64,000 nucleotides of DNA from Euzebya pacifica (GTDB lineage: Bacteria > Actinomycetota > Nitriliruptoria > Euzebyales > Euzebyaceae): contig NZ_CP031165.1 in NCBI RefSeq assembly GCF_003344865.1, positions 1,679,910-1,743,909 of the forward strand. Direction: 5' to 3'. A model generated the notes under the pieces. It did not search any database and had not been told where the DNA came from. It saw nothing but the letters and a program-made list of their open reading frames with translations. The translations under genes and the position numbers were made by a program. Positions 1,047-35,733 of this stretch are shown here, in pieces (the first letter of the stretch is position 1; each line of letters starts with the position of its first letter).

Positions 1047-1892
1047 TCAGAGGCTGGTGCGGACGTCCCACAGCTCGGGGAACAGCACGACGTCCAGCAT
1101 CCGTCGCAGGTAGCCGGTGCCCGAGGTGCCGCCGGTACCGCGCTTGGAGCCGATGATCCGCTCGACGGTGGTGACGTGGTTGAACCGCCACCGGCGGAAG
1201 TAGTCCTCCAGGTCGACCAGCTTCTCGGCCAGCTCGTAGGCCGACCAGTGGGCCTCGGGGTCGCGGTAGATGGTCTCCCACGCGGCCCGGACCGACTCGT
1301 GGGGCTGGTAGGGCTGGGTCCAGTCGCGGTCCAGCACCGAGGGGTCGATGTCCACGCCGTGGTCGGCCAGGAGGATCAGCACCTCGTCGTACAGGCTTGG
1401 GGTCTCCAGGTGGACCTGGAGCAGCTCGACGACCTCGGGGACGTGGCTGTGGGGCTGCAGCATCGAGGCGTTCTTGTTGCCGACGAGGAACTCGATGGCG
1501 CGGTACTGCCAGCTCTGGAAGCCCGAGGACTCGCCGAGGTCCTCGCGGAAGGTCGTGTACTCGCTGGGCGTCATCGTTCGCAGCACGTCCCACGCGCCGT
1601 TCAGCTGCTCGAAGATCCGCGCGACACGGGTCAACATCTTGAAGCTGGGCCGCATGCGCCCGTCCTTGATGGCGTCGCGCGCCGCGACGATCTCGTGGAT
1701 CGCCAGCTTCATCCACAGCTCGCTGGTCTGGTGCTGGATGATGAACAGCAGCTCGTCGTGGGCGCTCGACAACGGGGCCTGCGCGTGCAGCACCTCGTCG
1801 AGGTGCAGGTAGTCGATGTAGCTCATCCGTCCCTCGAAGCGCATGCGGGCGCCTTCGGTGGACGGGTCGTAGGGCTGCGGTGCGTCGCTCAT
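1047..1892 (-). CDS. kynA: Tryptophan 2,3-dioxygenase
   Basis: Haem enzyme that opens the indole ring of L-tryptophan to give N-formylkynurenine, the first step of the kynurenine route. The 281-residue length is normal. Family signatures are visible: [14 protein letters not shown] near the N-terminus, [14 protein letters not shown] in the middle, and [20 protein letters not shown] near the C-terminus with the histidine that binds haem in this family. The ATG at 1892 begins [11 protein letters not shown]; an upstream in-frame extension is possible but lacks family similarity. A TAGCCT hexamer sits eight bases before the ATG. No other kynurenine-pathway gene lies next to it, so the pathway is either scattered or incomplete. 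Confidence 0.95.
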
Positions 1893-1958
1893 CGGGGTCG
1901 AGGCTACGCCCCCGGGCCGCAGGGTGGGGCCCGCAACACTCCTGTCACCGTCGGGACC

Positions 1959-1964
1959 TACCAT
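1959..1964 (+). promoter_or_regulatory. Candidate -10 box (TACCAT) for a leaderless potassium-channel mRNA
   Basis: TACCAT ends seven bases before the ATG at 1972. It matches the TANNNT pattern seen at the same spacing before several other genes here. No clear -35 is visible. Confidence 0.35.
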
Positions 1965-1971
1965 CCGCGCG

Positions 1972-3054
1972 ATGATGCGGGAAGGGCAGGCCGCAAGGGC
2001 GCCGATCCGTCGGCTGCGCACCGCGGTCGTGCTGCTGCTGACCACGATCGTGGTCGGCGTCGTCGGCTACCTCGTGCTGGGTGCGCCGACCGTGGCCGAT
2101 GCGGTGTACATGGTGGCCATCACCCTGTTCACCGTCGGCTTCGGTGAGGTGTTCCCGCTGACGGAGACGGGCCGGTGGTTCACCGTCGGGTTGATCGTCG
2201 TCGGCTTCGGCTCGGCGACGTTCAGCGCGGTGTCGGCCATGGAGGTCATCGCCGACGGCCATGTGAAGGCCCTGCTGAGGAGGAACCAGATGGATCGTCG
2301 AATCGCACAGCTGCGGGGCCACGTGATCGTGTGTGGCTACGGGCGGGTGGGCCGACACCTCGTCGGTGAGCTGGCGGCGGCCGGGCACGGGTTCGTCGTG
2401 GTCGAGGCGGGCGAGGCGCGGGTCGGCGAGCTGCGGGAGGCCGAGCACCTCTACGTCGATGCCGATGCCACCGAGGAGCTGACGTTGCACGAAGCCGGGA
2501 TCGAGCGGGCAGACGCCCTGGTGGCCTGCGTGGCCGACGACGGTGACAACGTCCTGATCGTCCTCACCGCCAAGGGCCTCAACCCCGAGGTGCAGACCGT
2601 CGCCCGCGTGAAGGCCGACGAGAACGAACCGAAGCTGCGTCGGGCGGGTGCTGATCATGTCCTGGTGCCCACCGCGATCGGCGGTCGGCGGATCGCGGAG
2701 ATGTTGACCCGGCCCGCCGTGGGCGCCTACCTCGGCGAGGTCGGCGTGCACGACTTCGACTACACCGTGGCGCAGGTCACGCTGGTGGAGTCCTCCGAGC
2801 TGGTCGGCCTGACCGTCGCGGAAGCCCGACTGCGGCAGGAGCACGGCTGCTCGTTGCTGGCCCTGCAACGTCCCGGCGACCCGATGCCCGCACCCGACCC
2901 TGCACCGGGGGACCGGCTCGAGGCCGGGTCGACGCTGGTCGTCATGGGCGGGGTGGCCCATGTCGACAGGTTGCAGCGCCGCCACGGCGGCCGTGGGGTG
3001 ATGACGAAGGTGGTCAGCCGCGGCCATCGGGCAACGCCACGACGACCCCGATGA
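1972..3054 (+). CDS. Potassium channel with two transmembrane helices and an RCK (TrkA-N/TrkA-C) domain
   Basis: Ligand-gated K+ channel subunit expected to form a tetramer in the cell membrane. Residues 1-90 hold two hydrophobic helices with a pore loop reading FTVGFGE, a variant of the usual TVGYGD filter. A Rossmann RCK domain follows, starting at [15 protein letters not shown] (NAD-binding GxGxxG), then a TrkA-C-like domain near the C-terminus. The start is ATG 1972 or the adjacent ATG 1975; both fit. It is transcribed away from kynA across an 80-base gap. The C-terminal tail is basic. The filter variant conducts K+ in related two-helix channels, so K+ selectivity is likely but inferred. 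Confidence 0.88.
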
Positions 3055-3082
3055 GGCCGCCGGGCCGCCACGCCCCAACGAC

Positions 3083-3117
3083 GACGCCCGCCACGACGTG
3101 GGGTCGGGGCGGGCGTC
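3083..3117. terminator. Bidirectional hairpin terminator between convergent genes
   Basis: GACGCCCGCC pairs with GGCGGGCGTC, and an inner CGAC/GTCG pair extends the stem. It lies between the channel gene (ends 3054) and the opposing secreted-protein gene (ends 3134). There is no clear U-tract, as is common in actinobacteria. Confidence 0.65.
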
Positions 3118-3133
3118 GCGGCTTCTGGACTGT

Positions 3134-3652
3134 CTAGCTGGTCCTGAGGCTCGCGAGGGAGACGGTCAGGTCGATGTCGCCGGGGGTGGAGATGTAGTTG
3201 CGGATGTGGACCTCGAAGGTCTCGCAGTGCTTCACCTTGCCGGCGGTGGCCTGCTCGCCGTTGCCATCCAACGGGTTGAAGTTGTGGGATCCCTCCACCA
3301 GGGCCCCGTTCTTGTAGATGTCCATGTCGATGTCACCGGTGTGCTCCCAGTCGATCCGCACGCTGGGCGTCGCGGCGACGTGGTCGGGGTTGACGTCGAC
3401 CAGGATCGTGTAGACGTCGGTGGCGGCTTCCTGGAAGCCCAGCGGGTCGGGCTCGCCACCGAGGCCGAGCGGATAGGGGGACATGGCCGTCGGAGTGGGG
3501 ACGGTGTCGGTGAGACCATCGGTCTTCACGACGAAGTCCGCGGCGTCGACTTGGTCCTGGGTGCAGGGCTCGGAGACCGGAACGGGGTCTGCCCCGGCGG
3601 GGATGGCGGTCAGCAGCATGGCGACGGCGGCAAGGGACACGAGGGTGCGCAC
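3134..3652 (-). CDS. Secreted beta-sandwich protein of unknown function
   Basis: A 172-residue exported protein of unknown role. The GTG start at 3652 has AAAGG about eight bases upstream and opens a Sec signal (VRTLVSLAAVAMLL, cleavage likely after AGA). The mature part has two cysteines (SEPCTQD and KHCETFE) that could form a disulfide, and a predicted beta-rich C-terminal half (DIDMDIYKNG, HIRNYISTPGDIDLTV) resembling bacterial pre-peptidase C-terminal (PPC) domains. A similar strand pattern occurs in the divergent peptidase at 3830 (residues about 640-730). The two genes share an upstream region and may be co-expressed, but no enzymatic motif is visible. Confidence 0.7.
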   Translation of the reverse strand: MRTLVSLAAVAMLLTAIPAGADPVPVSEPCTQDQVDAADFVVKTDGLTDTVPTPTAMSPYPLGLGGEPDPLGFQEAATDVYTILVDVNPDHVAATPSVRIDWEHTGDIDMDIYKNGALVEGSHNFNPLDGNGEQATAGKVKHCETFEVHIRNYISTPGDIDLTVSLASLRTS

Positions 3653-27443: not shown

Positions 27444-27949
27444 GAGGGCCTCCGGTTCGGAAGGATTCGACCCACGTTGCGCTTGATCCACGGCCAGTGC
27501 ATCGCCAAGTGGACACCGACGAGCACGATGAGGAGGTTGCTGCTGGCGTCGTGAACGGTTGACCAGAAGGTGCTGGTCGTTGGGTTGAACCCGAGGTCGG
27601 GCAGGAGCGCTTCGGAGACGAGGAATCCCGAGTAGACGGCGACGACCATGCCGATGAAGATGACGATGTCGAACGCGCGGTTGAAGCGCACGGTGCCACT
27701 CCGTCGGCGTCCCGAACGGCGGAAGACCTCTCGGACCCACGCCCAGTCCAGCACGATGTGGCTGATGAAGATCGGGATGAACACCAGGGTGGCGTACTCG
27801 TGGAACGGGATGCCGGTCGACTGCGGCGCCGACAGCGCGACGTAGCCGACCAGCAGGGCCACATCGACCCACACCCGTGTCCTGAGCGACGCCCGCGCGG
27901 TTGTCCGCGCGGGGGTCGGCCCAGCGATTGCCTCGTCCACGTCGGTCAC
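27440..27949 (-). CDS. DUF4405 / cytochrome b561-like membrane protein
   Basis: A 169-residue membrane protein with four hydrophobic helices. Histidines sit inside or at the ends of the helices (FHEYATLVFIPIFISHIV and VHDASSNLLIVLVGVHLAMHW), the pattern of haem-b ligation seen in DUF4405 and ferric-reductase-like proteins. It could carry electrons across the membrane to or from a periplasmic partner. GTG at 27949 overlaps the stop of the lipoprotein gene upstream (GTGA) and is preceded by AGAGGAG; a GTG at 27940 is an alternative. Its 3' end overlaps the small membrane protein gene by four bases. Confidence 0.78.
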   Translation of the reverse strand: MTDVDEAIAGPTPARTTARASLRTRVWVDVALLVGYVALSAPQSTGIPFHEYATLVFIPIFISHIVLDWAWVREVFRRSGRRRSGTVRFNRAFDIVIFIGMVVAVYSGFLVSEALLPDLGFNPTTSTFWSTVHDASSNLLIVLVGVHLAMHWPWIKRNVGRILPNRRPS

Positions 27950-29004
27950 TCCTCTGGGAACAGGAAGGGCGTGACGAAGTCGATCGCGCCGGTCATGCCG
28001 AGGTCCGGGAAGGCATCGATGAGTCCCTGCTTGAACGCCTCGGCCGTGTCGACGGTGGCGAGCAGCTCGCCGGCGGTGGCCAGCCATTCGATGTTGGCGT
28101 CGAACACGCTGGAGTCGCTGGGTACGCCGTGTCCGGGGAGCACGATCGAGTCGCCGTTGTCGGCGAGCTCCTGCAGCGCTGCGGTCCACGTGTCGGCCGG
28201 CCCGGCCAGGATCAGGTGGATGCCGCTGTAGACGATGTCACCGGTCGCGACGACCCCGGCCTCGGGAACGCGGACGACCAGCTGGACCTCGGCTTCGGCG
28301 TCCGTCACCTCTGTCAGCTCGAACTCGACCCCGTCGATCTCGATCGTGCCGGGTTCAATAACCTCGGGGACGACGTAGGTCCCGGCGATGGCCTCCGAGC
28401 CGAAGTCGCCCTGCTTCTCCTCGACCTCCGCGTCGCCGTTGGCGGCGATCGCCGCAGACACGGCGTCCAGGGCGAAGACCGGCAGGTCGGCGAAGGCCTC
28501 GCTGCCGAGGAAATGGTCGGGGTGGGCGTGGGTGATGAAGACCCGGTCGATCGGCTTGCCCAAGCTGTCGGCGTAGGCGCGGAAGTCGGTGGCGTTGGGC
28601 AGCAGGAACTGGGTGTCGATGACCACCAGGGCGTTCGTGGTCTCGATGATGTGGGTGGAGTTGGCGAACGCCATCTCGGGCGGGGTCAGGCTGTGCACGA
28701 CCAGGTCCCCGATGGGTTGGACGGTGACGGCCAGCCCGCTGTCCCGAATCATGGACTCCGCGGTCGTCTCGGATGCGGTCGTCTCGGATGCGGTCGTCTC
28801 GGATGCGCTCGTCTCGGATGCGGTCGTCTCGGACGTGGTCGCTTCCGAGGCGGTCGGGTCGGGATCCGTCGTCGCGGTGTCGGTGGCCGCGGTCTCCGCG
28901 GCGACGCTGGCGGTGGTGTTCGGGTCGGCGTCCGTCGCGCAGGCGGCGGCGACGAGTGAGAGGGTCAGGGCGAGGACAAGTGCGGACAGTGGCCGGGGGA
29001 TCAT
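27946..29004 (-). CDS. Lipoprotein with metallo-beta-lactamase fold
   Basis: A 352-residue exported lipoprotein: signal LVLALTLSLVAAAC ends in a lipobox. A flexible linker rich in SETTA repeats (residues about 45-85) joins the anchor to a metallo-hydrolase domain with THAHPDHFLGS (HxHxDH), a metal aspartate in TGDIVYSG and a histidine in LPGHGVP. The domain resembles the SoxH/quinoprotein-relay type of MBL proteins, which act outside the membrane. It is first of three genes joined by GTGA overlaps with a haem-type membrane protein, hinting at an extracytoplasmic redox or hydrolytic step coupled to the membrane. Substrate unknown. Confidence 0.85.
   Translation of the reverse strand: MIPRPLSALVLALTLSLVAAACATDADPNTTASVAAETAATDTATTDPDPTASEATTSETTASETSASETTASETTASETTAESMIRDSGLAVTVQPIGDLVVHSLTPPEMAFANSTHIIETTNALVVIDTQFLLPNATDFRAYADSLGKPIDRVFITHAHPDHFLGSEAFADLPVFALDAVSAAIAANGDAEVEEKQGDFGSEAIAGTYVVPEVIEPGTIEIDGVEFELTEVTDAEAEVQLVVRVPEAGVVATGDIVYSGIHLILAGPADTWTAALQELADNGDSIVLPGHGVPSDSSVFDANIEWLATAGELLATVDTAEAFKQGLIDAFPDLGMTGAIDFVTPFLFPEE
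28763..28852 (-). repeat. 15-bp tandem repeats coding a SETTA linker
   Basis: GTCGTCTCGGATGCG repeats three times exactly from 28763, followed by three increasingly diverged units to 28852. The unit is a multiple of three, so copy number can vary without breaking the lipoprotein frame. Confidence 0.85.
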
Positions 29005-29118
29005 GGTCGTCTCCTGGAGCGGGGGCGTTGCGGCTTGATCAACACCCTGCGCACCCCCGACGTGTCGGGAAGGGTCCGTGAAGGACACCCGATGGTCATA
29101 ACCGGTCATGGTCGTGCA

Positions 29119-29140
29119 CGGTCAGCTCGTGACCTGACCG
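29119..29140. terminator. Small inverted repeat downstream of merR-like gene
   Basis: CGGTCAG and CTGACCG pair around an eight-base loop in the 199-base gap between the MerR-type gene (ends 29204) and the lipoprotein gene (starts 29004), both on the minus strand. It may terminate the former; no poly-U follows. Confidence 0.3.
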
Positions 29141-29203
29141 CTACGGGCAGACCAGACAGGCCGCAAGCGCCTGCTGCTCCGGTGCTCGAGAGAGGCCTCG
29201 TTG

Positions 29204-29599
29204 TCAGCCACGCGGCTCGATGATGCTGCAGAAGCCCTCGCACGCCTGCGGGTCCTGCTCGGCGGCGCGGGCGGCCAGGGAACGGAGGTGATCCCGCGTC
29301 GCCCGCAGCTCCCGTATGCGGCCATCCACTTCGGTCAGGCGTTCGGCGACGGCACTGGCGACGTGTTCACACGGTGCTTGGCCGTCGTCTGCGACCTCGA
29401 GGATCTGGCGGATCTGGGCGAGGGTGAGGCCGGCGGTCTGGGACCGCCGGATGAACTTGACGCGCTCGGCGGCCACGTCGTCGTAATCGCGATAGCCCGA
29501 TGCGGTTCGCGCTGGTGCGGGCAGGAGTCCCTCCCCTTCCCAGTAGCGGATCGTTTTGGTCGTCACAGTGGTGCGCTTCGCGAGTTCGCCGATCTTCAT
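29204..29599 (-). CDS. MerR-family heavy-metal-responsive regulator
   Basis: A 131-residue activator that twists its promoter when it binds metal. Winged helix IGELAKRTTVTTKTIRYW is at the N-terminus, then GYRDYDDVAAERVKFIRR and a dimerisation helix. Three cysteines lie where metal-sensing MerR proteins hold theirs: APCEHV (Cys 77) and ACEGFCSI (Cys 120 and 124). The CxxxC spacing differs from classical Hg(II) MerR (Cys-x8-Cys) and from CueR. It is divergent from the thioredoxin-like/alkylmercury lyase genes and a dyad operator lies between them, so it is the likely controller of the cassette. Metal preference is inferred from context to be mercury. Confidence 0.9.
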   Translation of the reverse strand: MKIGELAKRTTVTTKTIRYWEGEGLLPAPARTASGYRDYDDVAAERVKFIRRSQTAGLTLAQIRQILEVADDGQAPCEHVASAVAERLTEVDGRIRELRATRDHLRSLAARAAEQDPQACEGFCSIIEPRG

Positions 29600-29611
29600 G
29601 GATCCGACCAC

Positions 29612-29643
29612 TTGACCTTCCTGTTGGGTGGAAGGTTTACCGT
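29612..29643 (+). promoter_or_regulatory. MerR-type operator/promoter with over-long spacer
   Basis: TTGACC (-35) is followed by the perfect dyad ACCTTCC-N8-GGAAGGT and then TACCGT as -10. The spacer is 20 bp, longer than the 19 bp usual for MerR promoters; that over-length is what the regulator corrects. The dyad arms equal those of CueR/copA operators. It drives the genes from 29686. Coordinates may be off by one base. Confidence 0.75.
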
Positions 29644-29685
29644 AGCCCGGTAGGTAGTCACCCGTCACCCGGGAGGAACGAATCC

Positions 29686-30021
29686 ATGCACGTCGAGTTG
29701 CTCTACTTCGACGGCTGCCCGAGCTGGGCCACGGCGGACCAGCGCCTTCGAGAGGTGGCTCTGGCCCGGGGCCTGGAGGTCCATCGACGGCTGGTCACCA
29801 CCCAGGACGAGGCGGAACGAACCAATTTCCGAGGGTCCCCGACCATCCTCATCAACGGGCGCGACCCGTTCGCCACGGGGGACGAGCCCCCCGGCCTGTC
29901 GTGCCGGATCTTCCAGACGCCCGAGGGCCCCGCGGGGTCGCCGACCGTGGCGCAGCTGCACCAGGCCCTCGGCTCGGCCGGCCCTCCCGGCGGCCCCGAC
30001 GCCGAGAACCAGACGACATGA
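29686..30021 (+). CDS. Small thioredoxin-like protein of the mercury cassette
   Basis: A 111-residue protein with a thioredoxin fold signature. LLYFDGCPSWATAD near residue 4 has one active-site cysteine (GCPSW) in place of CxxC, and GSPTILINGRDPF has the cis-proline strand. A second cysteine pair candidate is LSCRIF near residue 84. Proteins of this kind accompany alkylmercury lyase genes in actinobacteria, and some use selenocysteine at the GCPSW position; here the codon is TGC. It may pass or reduce thiol-bound mercury. GGGAGG precedes the ATG, and the stop overlaps the next ATG (ATGA). Confidence 0.8.
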   Translation: MHVELLYFDGCPSWATADQRLREVALARGLEVHRRLVTTQDEAERTNFRGSPTILINGRDPFATGDEPPGLSCRIFQTPEGPAGSPTVAQLHQALGSAGPPGGPDAENQTT

Positions 30022-31253
30022 CCGCCCACACCTCGGGGGTTCCGCACCGTCCGGGTCCGATCGGGCGGACCGTCCGGCTGGCCCTCGGCGTCGTGTCGCT
30101 GCAGGCAGCGGTCGGTGCGGTTCTCGCGTTGGTCGATGGTGTGTCCGGCCCGCCGAGGACCAGCGACACCGGTCTGGTGATCGCGGTCCTGATCGCCCTC
30201 TGGCTGACCCCGACCGTGTTCGATGTGGGGCTCGGGACCCGGCTCGGCAACCGTTGGCGGTTTGCCGTGGCGGGGGGCATCGGTCTCGTCACGTTTGTCG
30301 GGCTCGCGCTCGGTGCCGCCGGGACCGGCTTCAGCATCGGCGTCCTGGTCTGGGTCGCGGTCACCCTCGGCTGGCTCGGTGTGGCCTTCCTCGTGGCAGT
30401 CGTGCTGCGCACACCCGGGTGTGAGATGCGCTCCCTGCAGCACCTCGCCAGCGTCGTGCGGTCTGAGGACCGGGAGTTCGTCGCGTGTCCCGGCCCGCTC
30501 CAGCCACTCGATGAATGGGAAGCGCGCACGACCGGTCGCGCCGTCCCCTATGCACAGGAGGTACAGCACATGCGATTCACCACCCCAGCCGCCCACGAAC
30601 TCGTGGCGGCACTCGGTCGGGCCGCGGGCCAGCTGGACGAGCCTCAGCGCCGCGTCGCCCTCGCCATCTATCGGCTGCTCGCCGACCGGGCGCAAGTGGC
30701 GCCAGAGGGCATAGCGGACGCCACCGGCATCAACGCCACGACGATCGAATCGTGGCTCGACGAGTGGCCGGGCGTCTTCCGTGATCCCGACGGTCGCGTC
30801 GTTGGGTTCTGGGGCCTCGCGCTGTCGCCGCTCAGTCCGCGATACGAGCTGGTCGATCACCACACCGGCGTCTCCGTCGGGTACGCGTGGTGCGCGTGGG
30901 ACACGCTGTTCCTGCCCTCGTTGCTCGGGCGCACGCTGGACGTCACCGCCTCCGACGGGGCCTCGGGGGCGCCCATCAGGCTCACCGTCGCCCCCGATGG
31001 GGTCCGGACACTCGACCCCGCGAACACCGTCGTCAGCTTCCAGGCCCCCACCGACGAGTGGGACGAGGACATACTGACGTCGTTCTGCCACGAGGTGCTC
31101 TTCTTCGCCGATGGTGCCGCGGCTGAGGGGTGGATGGCCGAACGCGACGACGAGCTCTTCACGCTGTCGGCCGAGGCGGCCTTCGACATCGGTCGGCGGT
31201 GGGTCAAGGAGCGGTACGGCGAAGCCCTGCTGACCGCGGATCGCGAGCGGTAG
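30018..31253 (+). CDS. merB: Alkylmercury lyase fused to an N-terminal four-helix membrane domain
   Basis: A 411-residue protein. Residues 185-411 are organomercurial lyase, which splits the carbon-mercury bond: Cys292 and Asp295 in WCAWDTLFLP and Cys357 in SFCHEVLFF match catalytic Cys96, Asp99 and Cys159 of MerB. Residues 1-184 are an unrelated membrane domain with four hydrophobic helices (about 17-41, 49-68, 76-98, 100-125) and cysteines in PGCEMRS and ACPGPL. Free MerB is normally about 212 residues and soluble. An internal AGGAGG and ATG at 30570 could also yield soluble lyase. ATGA overlap couples it to the thioredoxin-like gene. The membrane domain's function, perhaps uptake, is inference. 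Confidence 0.9.
   Translation: MTAHTSGVPHRPGPIGRTVRLALGVVSLQAAVGAVLALVDGVSGPPRTSDTGLVIAVLIALWLTPTVFDVGLGTRLGNRWRFAVAGGIGLVTFVGLALGAAGTGFSIGVLVWVAVTLGWLGVAFLVAVVLRTPGCEMRSLQHLASVVRSEDREFVACPGPLQPLDEWEARTTGRAVPYAQEVQHMRFTTPAAHELVAALGRAAGQLDEPQRRVALAIYRLLADRAQVAPEGIADATGINATTIESWLDEWPGVFRDPDGRVVGFWGLALSPLSPRYELVDHHTGVSVGYAWCAWDTLFLPSLLGRTLDVTASDGASGAPIRLTVAPDGVRTLDPANTVVSFQAPTDEWDEDILTSFCHEVLFFADGAAAEGWMAERDDELFTLSAEAAFDIGRRWVKERYGEALLTADRER
30556..30572 (+). promoter_or_regulatory. Internal ribosome-binding site and in-frame ATG for a soluble MerB
   Basis: Perfect AGGAGG at 30556-30561, an eight-base spacer, then ATG at 30570, in frame with the fusion. The ATG begins MRFTTPAAHELVAALG, just where free MerB proteins start. 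It is a stronger initiation site than most in this window. Confidence 0.7.
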
Positions 31254-31309
31254 CGATCTGGCCTCTCTGGGTAAGTCGGGACTGACCGCGAACACCTCTG
31301 CGAGGACCC

Positions 31310-32668
31310 ATGAAGGACGACATGTACGACTTGATCGTGATCGGCGCCGGCATGGCCGGGGTCAACGCCGCGAACAAGTGCGGCGCCGCCGGCTGGCGGG
31401 TCGCCATCGTCGATGAGCTGCCCTATGGCGGGACCTGCGCACTACGGGGGTGTGACCCCAAGAAGATCCTCCGGCGCGCCGCGGAGATCATCGACGCCGC
31501 TCACCTGATGGAGGGCCGGGGAGTCCACGTCGGCGACCTGGCCATCGACTGGGCGGGACTGATGGACCACAAGCACGGGTTCACCGACTCCGTCCCGGAG
31601 AACATGGAGGAGGGGCTGCACGGCAACGACGTCGAGACCCTGCACGGCACCGCTACGTTCACGAGCGCCGACACGATCGAGGTCGACGGCCGTCCCCTCA
31701 CGAGCGAGTGGTTCCTCGTCGCCACCGGTGCGACCCCCCGCTCCTTGCCGTTCCAAGGCGCTGAGCACCTGATCGACAGCACTGACTTCCTTCACCTCGA
31801 CGCCCTCCCCGGCAGAGTGCTGTTCGTCGGCGGCGGGTTCGTCTCCATGGAGTTCGCGCACATCGCCGCGCGGGCCGGTGCCGAGGTCGTCGTCGTGGAC
31901 CGGGGCCAGCGGCCCTTGAAGGGCTTCGACCCCGACCTCGTCGACGTGCTCGTGGACCGCAGCCGTCAGATCGGCATCGACGTTCGCACCGGCACCAGCG
32001 TCCAGTCGGTGGAGGCATCCGGGTCGGGCTTCGTCGTCGAGCTGGGCGACGACAGCAGAACGGACCGGGTCGAGGCCGATGTGGTCGTCCACGGCGCGGG
32101 CCGAGTACCCGCCCTCGACCGCTTGGGACTGGACGCAGCAGGCGTGACCCACGACGAGCGTGGCATCCGCGTGCACCCCCACCTGCAGAGCACCAGCAAC
32201 CCGCGGGTCTGGGCTGCTGGGGACGCCGCCGACACCCCCGGGCTGCCGCTCACCCCTGTCGCGGTGTTCGAGGGAAAGGTCGCGGCATCCAACATGCTGA
32301 AGGGCACCCAGACCGTCCCCGACTACGACGGTGTCGCCACGGGCGTGTTCACGATCCCCGAGCTGACACGGGTCGGCACGAGTGAAGCCGACGCCCGAGA
32401 CCGTTTGGGCGACCGCCTTCGCGTCCGGCACACCGACACGAGTGGCTGGTACTCCAGCTATCGGGTGGGCGAGACCCACTCCGCCGCCAAGGTCCTGATC
32501 GACACGGACTCCGACACGATCGTCGGCGCGCACCTCCTGGGCCCCGAGTACGGCGAGATCACCGCGGTGTTCGCGCTGGCCATCAGCCAGCGGCTGACCA
32601 CCCGGCAGCTGAAGTCCATGGACCCCGTCTATCCCACGGTCGCCTCCGACATCGGATCCATGCTGTGA
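31310..32668 (+). CDS. FAD-dependent disulfide oxidoreductase, mercuric-reductase-like
   Basis: A 452-residue flavoprotein of the lipoamide dehydrogenase/mercuric reductase class. FAD motif IVIGAGMAGVNAA, redox disulfide GGTCALRGCDPKK, NAD(P) motif FVGGGFVSMEFAHIAARAGA and GDAADTPGLPLTPVA are present. Compared with MerA it lacks the N-terminal NmerA domain, and the C-terminus ends TVASDIGSML with no Cys-Cys pair; the His-Glu dyad of lipoamide dehydrogenases is also absent (YPTVASD instead of HPT..E). Position after the lyase suggests it reduces Hg(II) or regenerates thiols for it, but chemistry must differ from classical MerA. GAGG precedes the ATG by five bases. Confidence 0.85.
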   Translation: MKDDMYDLIVIGAGMAGVNAANKCGAAGWRVAIVDELPYGGTCALRGCDPKKILRRAAEIIDAAHLMEGRGVHVGDLAIDWAGLMDHKHGFTDSVPENMEEGLHGNDVETLHGTATFTSADTIEVDGRPLTSEWFLVATGATPRSLPFQGAEHLIDSTDFLHLDALPGRVLFVGGGFVSMEFAHIAARAGAEVVVVDRGQRPLKGFDPDLVDVLVDRSRQIGIDVRTGTSVQSVEASGSGFVVELGDDSRTDRVEADVVVHGAGRVPALDRLGLDAAGVTHDERGIRVHPHLQSTSNPRVWAAGDAADTPGLPLTPVAVFEGKVAASNMLKGTQTVPDYDGVATGVFTIPELTRVGTSEADARDRLGDRLRVRHTDTSGWYSSYRVGETHSAAKVLIDTDSDTIVGAHLLGPEYGEITAVFALAISQRLTTRQLKSMDPVYPTVASDIGSML

Positions 32669-32796
32669 GTGGCCGACCCTCGGGGCTGTTGGGGACTGGG
32701 TGGCCCATTACAGCCGACTCCGATGCACGGCAGCGCGGTCGCGGGTTCGACCTGTAGCGTCCACGTCAGAGACGCCCCCGTGAAGGCGGTGAGGGA

Positions 32797-35733
32797 GTGG
32801 GCGCGTACGTGGCGGTGCTGGGTCCCATGGCCGCGACCGTGGACGGCCACCAGGCCGCGCTCGGCACGCCCAAGCAGCGGCTTGCGCTCGCGGTGCTGCT
32901 CGCGGCCGACCGCAAGCCCGTCCCGATCGACACCCTCGTGGACAGGGTCTGGCCCGAGGCGCCACCGGCACGGGCGCACCACAGCTTGCAGCAGTACGCC
33001 TCCAGGTTGCGCAGCGTGCTGGAACCCGACCGGAAACATGGGGAGCCGTCGACGGTGCTGCCGAGGGCGGGAGGGGGCTACGCCGCACTGGTCGACACCG
33101 ACCTGATGGCGCTCGACACCCTCCTCCGCGAAGGGAGGTTCGCACTCGAGGACGGACGGAACAACGACGCGATCCACGCGTGGACAGCGGCCGAGAAGCT
33201 GTGGCGGGGCCGGGCCTACGCCGACCTCGCCGGCGAGCCGTTCGCCGATGCCGAGGCCCGGCGCCTCGAGGAACGACGACTGTCGACCGTGCGGCGCCGC
33301 CTGGACATGACGCTGCGGCTTGGGCGTCACGACGACGCGGTCGACGAGCTGCGCGCCCTCGTCGGCGAACACCCCCTCGACGAGCCGTTGTGGTCGCTGC
33401 AGGTCCGTGCGCTGCACGGACAGGGTCGGCGTGCGGACGCGCTGAAGGCGTTCGAGCAAGCCCGGGAGGCCCTCCGTGACGGCCTTGGGTTGGACCCGGG
33501 GGAGGATCTGCAGGCCGCGCAACGGGCCGTTTTGCTTGGCGACGCCGCTCGGGGGGTGACCGAACCGACAATCGTCAGCAGGCATGCCGACGACGCCACC
33601 CCCACCACGGCTACTGGCCTGCCCGCCTATCGCACCAGCTTCGTTGGCCGTGCCGACGAGATCGCCGCCCTCAACCGACAGCTCACCCCCGGCGCGATCA
33701 TCACCCTGACGGGCATGGGTGGGATCGGCAAGACCCGGCTGGCCGTGGAGGTCGCTCGGGTCGCCGGAGCGAGGTTCCGGGACGGAGTCGCGTTCGCCGA
33801 GCTGGCGCCGCACACCGATCAAGCCAGCGTCCACGCGGCCGTGCGGGAGGCGATCGGCGTGGCGGAGCACCCCTCTCGCCCACCCGCCGAAACGCTCGTC
33901 ACCGCCATGACCGACCGTGCGCACCTATTGGTCATCGACAACGCCGAACACGTCGCGGCTCCCGTCAGCGCCCTCGTGGATCGGATGGCCACGGCCAGCC
34001 CGGATACCGCCGTCCTTGTCACGAGCCGCGAGCCCCTCAGGGTGCCCGGGGAGCAGGTCTGGCCGCTCGGTCCGCTGCCAGCAGGGGGCGACGGCGATGC
34101 CGCGACTGAGCTGCTGCGGCAGCGTGGCCACTCCGCGAACGTCGCCCTGGGGAACGACGACGCCCTGCCCCGTCTGGCCGAGCGGCTGGACGGGATGCCG
34201 CTGGCCATCGAGGTCGTCGCGCCCTGGGCCCGTCACATGGCGATCGCCGACATCGTGGAGAACCTGTCCGACTTGCTCGCGCTGGAGGCGTCCGGGGACG
34301 GAAGTGGCAACGCGATCGCCGCCACCATCCGCGGCAGCGAGAAGCTGCTGGACCCACCCCACCAGGTGGCGTTCGCGCAACTCGGGGTGCTGGCAAGCGA
34401 CTTCGGCGTGGAGGGCGCGATGGCGGTGCTGGATGCGCCGACCCGGGCGGCGGCGTTCGCGGTCATCGGTCGGCTGGCGGACGCCTCCCTGTTGGAGGTA
34501 TCGACCGGATCGGGGAGCAGCCGATACCGGATGCTGGAGCCCGTGCGCCAGTACGCCGTGTGGCGGCTCGGCGAAGTGGGAGAGGAGGTGGCGGTTCGTG
34601 ACCGTCACCTCGCGCACTACGCCTCGCTGGCCCGAGGGGTTCGCGACGCCACGAGCACCCCCGAGCAGCCGGCCCGGTTCGCCGACGCGCACCGGGAGCG
34701 CCTCAACATCCGCGCCGCGCACGAGTGGGCGCTGGCGTCGGGCGCCGCGGACGAGGCGGCGCGGCTGGTCAGCGACCTCGCGTGGTTCTGGCTCACGACG
34801 GTCAACCCCCACGAGCTGCGGGACCGGGCCGAGCGCACCCTGGCGGCAGGACCGATCGGGCGCGCCAAGGCGCGGCTGCTGATCGCGCTGACGCAGTCGC
34901 TCACCCACATGGGTCGGGTGCGGGACGCGTTCACTCGCGGCCGTGAAGCCGTCGCCGCGGCCGAGCAGGTCGGCGAACGGCGGCTGCTCGGGATGGCTCG
35001 CACGACCGCGGGCAGGGCGGCGAGCGGTGCGCTGGACTGGGCCGAGGCGGAGCGGCAGATCCGGTTGGCCCGCGAGGATTTCCGGGCGGCCGGGAGCCGA
35101 CGGGGCGAGGCCGACGCCCTCCTGGCATTGGCGGTCAACACCCCGCAGCCATTCGAGGAGGCACTGGCGCTGGCGGACGAGGCGTGGGCGGTGCTCGACC
35201 ACTCCAACGCCTACGTCGATGCCGCTCGCAGCCATCTGCACGCCATCAAGGCCATGAGCGACGGGCGTCGCACCGACGCCCTCGCCGCGTGTGAGCGGGT
35301 CCGCGTCGCAAGTGCCTCATTGGGGATGGACGGCAGCATGATCACCAGCAGCGACTTCATCGAGGCCGCCGCCTTGACCGCTGGGGGCGAGCTCGAGGCG
35401 GCACGACGCGCCGTTCGCCGTGGCTTGATGAGCATGCAGCACATCGACAACGCCTACAGCCACCACGCCTGCGGCCGCGCGATCGCCACGGTGCTGTTGG
35501 CGATGGGCGAGCCAGCGCTGGCAGCCAAGGCCTGTGGGGTTCTCGCGACGGTGGCCGACACGATCCCGGTGAACCCGCACTTCGTGGCCCCCGAGCGGAA
35601 CGAGGCCCTGATCGCGCGGCTGAGGGAGACGCTCGGCGCGGAGGCCTACGACGCGTTGGCGGCCGACGGCGCCGCGACCATGAACTTGCCGGTGCTGATC
35701 GAGGTGTACCGCGACGTCGAGGCCCGGGCCTGA
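32797..35733 (+). CDS. SARP/AfsR-type regulator with NTPase and TPR-like domains
   Basis: A 978-residue cytoplasmic regulator, the second of its kind here. Residues 5-90 resemble the OmpR-type DNA-binding domain (VAVLGPMAATVDGHQAALG, LQQYASRLRSVL), 95-245 the activation domain, then an NB-ARC NTPase (ITLTGMGGIGKTRLAVEVAR, LLVIDNAEHV, LVTSREPLRVPGE) and a long helical C-terminal region. The start is GTG 32797 with only a weak ribosome site. The nearest genes are the mercury cassette upstream and an opposing MDMPI-fold gene three bases downstream, so the target is not obvious. It shares architecture but not close sequence with the regulator at 13237. Confidence 0.88.
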   Translation: MGAYVAVLGPMAATVDGHQAALGTPKQRLALAVLLAADRKPVPIDTLVDRVWPEAPPARAHHSLQQYASRLRSVLEPDRKHGEPSTVLPRAGGGYAALVDTDLMALDTLLREGRFALEDGRNNDAIHAWTAAEKLWRGRAYADLAGEPFADAEARRLEERRLSTVRRRLDMTLRLGRHDDAVDELRALVGEHPLDEPLWSLQVRALHGQGRRADALKAFEQAREALRDGLGLDPGEDLQAAQRAVLLGDAARGVTEPTIVSRHADDATPTTATGLPAYRTSFVGRADEIAALNRQLTPGAIITLTGMGGIGKTRLAVEVARVAGARFRDGVAFAELAPHTDQASVHAAVREAIGVAEHPSRPPAETLVTAMTDRAHLLVIDNAEHVAAPVSALVDRMATASPDTAVLVTSREPLRVPGEQVWPLGPLPAGGDGDAATELLRQRGHSANVALGNDDALPRLAERLDGMPLAIEVVAPWARHMAIADIVENLSDLLALEASGDGSGNAIAATIRGSEKLLDPPHQVAFAQLGVLASDFGVEGAMAVLDAPTRAAAFAVIGRLADASLLEVSTGSGSSRYRMLEPVRQYAVWRLGEVGEEVAVRDRHLAHYASLARGVRDATSTPEQPARFADAHRERLNIRAAHEWALASGAADEAARLVSDLAWFWLTTVNPHELRDRAERTLAAGPIGRAKARLLIALTQSLTHMGRVRDAFTRGREAVAAAEQVGERRLLGMARTTAGRAASGALDWAEAERQIRLAREDFRAAGSRRGEADALLALAVNTPQPFEEALALADEAWAVLDHSNAYVDAARSHLHAIKAMSDGRRTDALAACERVRVASASLGMDGSMITSSDFIEAAALTAGGELEAARRAVRRGLMSMQHIDNAYSHHACGRAIATVLLAMGEPALAAKACGVLATVADTIPVNPHFVAPERNEALIARLRETLGAEAYDALAADGAATMNLPVLIEVYRDVEARA

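Follow-up and report, generated by a model that had tools for sequence, protein, structure and literature searches.

Fusion of a MerB-type lyase domain to a predicted four-helix membrane partner of mer loci in Euzebya pacifica

The window, a stretch of 64,000 nucleotides of the Euzebya pacifica contig NZ_CP031165.1, carries on its forward strand a reading frame (30018-31253) that is open throughout and encodes 411 amino acids. As the original prediction had proposed, it joins a membrane domain in frame to a MerB-type lyase. The gene lies in a cassette with the following features:

29204-29599, reverse strand: divergent MerR-family regulator with Cys 77, 120 and 124; best score CadR/ZntR-like, below the equivalog cut-offs
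29612-29642, forward strand: MerR-type operator/promoter, dyad TTGACCTTCC-N8-GGAAGGTTTACCG
29686-30021, forward strand: thioredoxin-like homologue of the DF-family (seleno)proteins; the stop codon overlaps the fusion start (ATGA)
30018-31253, forward strand: fusion gene, membrane domain plus MerB-type lyase
30018-30539, forward strand: membrane-partner domain, residues 1-174, with four predicted helices, two invariant cysteines (Cys135, part of a GCE motif, and Cys157) and an L/I-D-x-W-E motif
30540-30569, forward strand: junction, residues 175-184, probably a translated former intergenic stretch
30556-30562, forward strand: internal Shine-Dalgarno AGGAGGT, complementary over its whole length to the anti-SD of the genome
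30570-31253, forward strand: MerB domain, possible free product of 227 aa; C292, D295 and C357 intact, Asp at the C117 equivalent
31310-32668, forward strand: FAD/NAD(P) disulfide reductase with redox motif TCALRGC, without a C-terminal Cys pair

The C-terminal part of the fusion protein is matched by Pfam MerB (PF03243) with E=2.2e-26 and 92.7 bits, above the gathering cut-off of 27. HTH_15 also matches the protein (E=1.6e-5), slightly below its cut-off, and the NCBIfam MerB equivalog NF009710 gives 141.5 bits, under its cut-off of 193. The alignment with PDB MerB (1s6l/3f2g, E about 1e-22) covers YAWCAWD and SFCHEV of the fusion and places C96, D99 and C159 of MerB at C292, D295 and C357. 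The catalytic residues named by the original prediction are therefore in place; what it did not mention is the equivalent of C117, which is Asp in the fusion and in several relatives. Only four cysteines are present in the whole protein, at 135, 157, 292 and 357. Christakis et al. (PMC8261052) take C117 as the fourth MerB signature and use '117alt' for a MerB-like variant class; by these criteria the putative lyase of the fusion is a '117alt' MerB-like variant. Compared with MerB of R831b (1s6l), it has the same catalytic domain with these three residues and an N-terminal HTH-like region, and is set apart by the preceding membrane domain, the Asp at C117 and the score below the equivalog cut-off.

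The membrane part shows four helices in hydropathy within residues 1-184, which AlphaFold2 places at 14-42, 51-71, 77-100 and 105-130 with moderate confidence (pLDDT 66.5, pTM 0.54). C135 and C157, the sole cysteines of this domain, both lie C-terminal to helix 4. The numbers of Lys and Arg in loops 0 to 3 (3/1/3/0) suggest, by the positive-inside rule, that both ends of the domain would lie in the cytosol, a topology that would leave MerB hanging on the membrane's inner face. Searches of Pfam, NCBIfam and PDB sequences with the domain or its profile gave no match, and Foldseek against PDB with two models gave nothing at E<=0.001. A possible identity with DUF6410 (PF19948) was dropped, as one relative reached only 17.1 bits against a gathering score of 25 and the window domain itself was unmatched.

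Genes for MerR, DF and the FAD reductase are also found together on plasmids of Iamia, Cryobacterium, Microbacterium and Pimelobacter, with no merB listed between them. In the window, the fusion is located between DF and the reductase, and in a genome of the same genus (G022, locus L002) MerB occupies the same place without a membrane part, fused to DF (1192-2172, 326 aa). This DF-MerB fusion resembles the window in cassette, regulator, operator dyad and reductase, and its lyase is 63% identical, but it is the thioredoxin-like DF, instead of a membrane domain, that is joined to MerB; no membrane gene was detected in the G022 genome. The dyad TTGACCTTCC-N8-GGAAGGTTTAC is kept between the window and L002, and is present in L004 with one or two changes. 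A sigma-70 scan limited to 16-18 nt spacers gave no promoter; MerR promoters have spacers longer than 16-18 nt. Rfam had no match in 29000-33000.

The reductase is 66% identical to its Iamia plasmid homologue and 58% to that of Cryobacterium. Its identity as MerA was rejected on a TIGR02053 score of 262 bits, where the cut-off is 454, and on the lack of Cys near the C-terminus, and no MerA scored above cut-off in the genome of the window. The DF gene scores 67.5 bits against NF049942 over its full length, where the curated cut-off is 70. The SAO-type MerB-like lyase SaoL and the DF-family selenoproteins of NCBIfam resemble the window in that a DF-like thioredoxin protein adjoins an organometal lyase; unlike them, the DF homologue of the window has Cys, not Sec, and its MerB has no SaoL match. 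On plasmid loci (L086-L090) the DF protein is sometimes annotated as 'alkylmercury lyase', though it has no MerB domain. The reverse strand at 27946-29109 encodes a lipoprotein-like protein in which HAHPDH forms a motif of the metallo-beta-lactamase type and short S/T/E-rich repeats follow one another near the N-terminus.

Residues 175-184 look like a translated former intergenic or ribosome-binding stretch. The original prediction had counted 184 residues into the membrane part; its four helices and two cysteines stand, but conservation of the membrane family stops near residue 174. GC3 is 0.71 over residues 171-184, 0.85 in the membrane part and 0.88 in MerB. At the junction, AGGAGG (30556) is followed at 8 nt spacing by an in-frame ATG at 30570, and this ATG encodes Met185, which aligns with the Met at which stand-alone MerBs start. 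The arrangement AGGAGG-N8-ATG has no other occurrence in the 64 kb of the window, against an expectation of 0.24. With spacings of 5-11 there are five occurrences against 1.83 expected, and at that rate the expected number of such in-frame sites no more than 90 nt away from any given point is about 0.0004. The 3' end of the genome's 16S rRNA (ACCTCCTTTCT) pairs with AGGAGGT at 7/7 positions, and the RNA around the ATG is weakly folded (-5.4 kcal/mol), like other gene starts, the gene-wide mean being -12.2. The internal start signals noticed at the outset are thus present as described. Because the fusion kept the MerB start, a tethered and a free lyase are both plausible, and these signals suggest that one gene probably makes the two.

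A second membrane-MerB fusion was found neither in 396 actinomycetote genomes, nor in 539 merB-bearing plasmid records, nor in one GTDB genome pattern scan, and no report of a membrane-fused MerB was found in the open-licence literature. The original prediction had held that a lack of homologous fusions would count against it; no further fusion came up, yet elsewhere the two halves recur side by side. Relatives of the membrane domain stand beside merB as genes of their own in Acidimicrobiia MAGs, in two other actinomycetotes and on plasmids of Tsukamurella and Nocardioides. Many of them share 4 nt with the gene that follows, and a thioredoxin-like DF gene is a frequent companion. A search with the membrane domain alone recovered stand-alone relatives in two actinomycetote genomes. 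In one of these (L015), the membrane gene begins 2 nt after a thioredoxin-like gene that is itself downstream of merB; a genome scan found consecutive genes for MerR, MerB, thioredoxin-like DF and the membrane protein in an Acidimicrobiia MAG (L031), and L032 has the order MerB, DF, membrane gene that is seen in L015 and L031. In Acidimicrobiia 2-3 nt separate DF from the membrane gene; in the window the two overlap. A more distant relative (L035, genome G216) has the order MerB, membrane gene, DF. With this relative as bait we found merA-merB-membrane gene with a 4-nt overlap on the Tsukamurella plasmid, and membrane gene-hypothetical-merB with 4-nt overlaps on the Nocardioides plasmid. A joint profile search added two loci in G104, both adjoining merB, one of which seems frame-broken near the C-terminal motif. 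Both the plasmid loci and those of G104 were reached with the membrane sequence, and not MerB, as bait; the window's own membrane sequence found nothing credible among plasmids (two matches, E 5 and 7).

All eight aligned members have G13, R20, G24, P65, C135-E136, C157 and D165 in common, and profile comparison (E=2e-6) joins the two membrane subgroups, for the most part through the C-terminal motif. The members in L030 and L014 lie away from merB. The latter (1489-2013, reverse strand) adjoins genes for a SAM-dependent methyltransferase and an ABC-2 permease-like protein, and its genome (G091) has MerB on another contig. MerB is present in 5/5 of the sampled actinomycetote genomes with a convincing membrane member versus 48/396 overall (P about 2e-5), a value biased by the fact that one of the five is the starting genome and another was found by looking beside MerB. 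Most of the weak profile matches among the 396 genomes look generically hydrophobic, a short match on the opposite strand in G026 was not counted as a member, and viral contigs contained no relatives of the membrane domain. The family is rare, and most MerBs operate without a membrane partner.

We are confident that the gene is a real fusion of a recurrent mer partner with MerB. In the simplest history, loss of a stop codon between two tightly coupled genes would have created the in-frame fusion, inside which MerB's former ribosome site and start codon persist, so that a membrane-tethered lyase and some free lyase would be made. The membrane part would keep MerB at the membrane's inner face, the place where lipophilic organomercurials would arrive; the invariant cytosol-side Cys pair would bind R-Hg+ and hand it to the cysteines of MerB, and the DF thioredoxin-like protein and the neighbouring FAD reductase would handle, and presumably reduce, the released Hg(II). 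Taken as a whole, this explanation, a four-helix mer partner fused to MerB with the old start retained and a thiol relay, seems to us somewhat better than evenly supported. It is a more tentative proposal that the membrane protein may be a new, MerB-dedicated mer component, a cytosol-facing dithiol dock channelling organomercurials to the lyase, in which case the fusion would provide docked and free lyase.

The fusion could also result from neutral loss of a stop codon, the lyase coming mostly from the internal start and the tether having no function of its own. That it was found once, that it retains a strong internal start and that its short linker resembles former spacer DNA all agree with such an origin. 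However, several lineages have conserved the membrane partner next to merB, so that it probably acts with MerB also as a separate protein, and the frame stays open and family-conserved; we consider neutral loss rather unlikely.

Less likely still is that the membrane part imports organomercury or Hg(II) in the manner of MerT, MerC or MerE, coupling uptake to cleavage. Like these, it is a small helical membrane protein of a mer operon, with four predicted helices and a Cys pair, and uptake of organomercury was indeed what the original prediction expected of it. That expectation is not sustained: neither Pfam nor NCBIfam profiles of MerT and MerC match the domain, and no aligned member of the family has a cysteine in its predicted helices, whereas MerT and MerE need the Cys pair in helix 1 (PMC5715351) and the window has both cysteines after helix 4. 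A thiol dock fits better than transport, given that the Cys pair on which known transporters rely is located within helix 1.

Finally, that a sequencing or assembly error masks a stop between what are two adjacent genes, as the membrane gene and merB are everywhere else, is very improbable, since the genome is assembled in 2 contigs, conservation of the family up to about residue 170 runs in the MerB frame, and an indel is excluded because both other frames have no stop near the junction, being open to 30714 and 30784, so that the error would have to be a substituted base within a small set of codons.

The preferred reading, a recurrent membrane partner fused to MerB, would bear on mercury detoxification more widely. 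No dedicated membrane partner of MerB was found in the searched families or in open-licence papers, and the fusion points to one. It would imply that the lyase acts together with an unannotated protein whose gene accompanies merB on plasmids and in several lineages of actinobacteria, so that a fusion in a marine-type actinobacterium would expose a membrane component that has been overlooked in bacterial mercury detoxification. It also raises a testable question, namely by which route organomercurials reach the enzyme and where in the cell MerB is placed. This is of relevance for genomes with MerB but without MerA, about half of MerB-bearing genomes (PMC8261052).

Another MerB-like gene was observed in the same genome, on the reverse strand at G000:C1:450885-451244 (about 2886-3245 of locus L064), with the equivalents of C96 and D99 kept (NCAWDAFG). 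In Actinomycetota, the MerB places number about 66 and roughly 20 carry an in-frame TGA, among which L064 alone was inspected; there the TGA stands at the place of C159 (IAFT-TGA-LTMAPFRSEEH), making the gene a candidate selenocysteine lyase.
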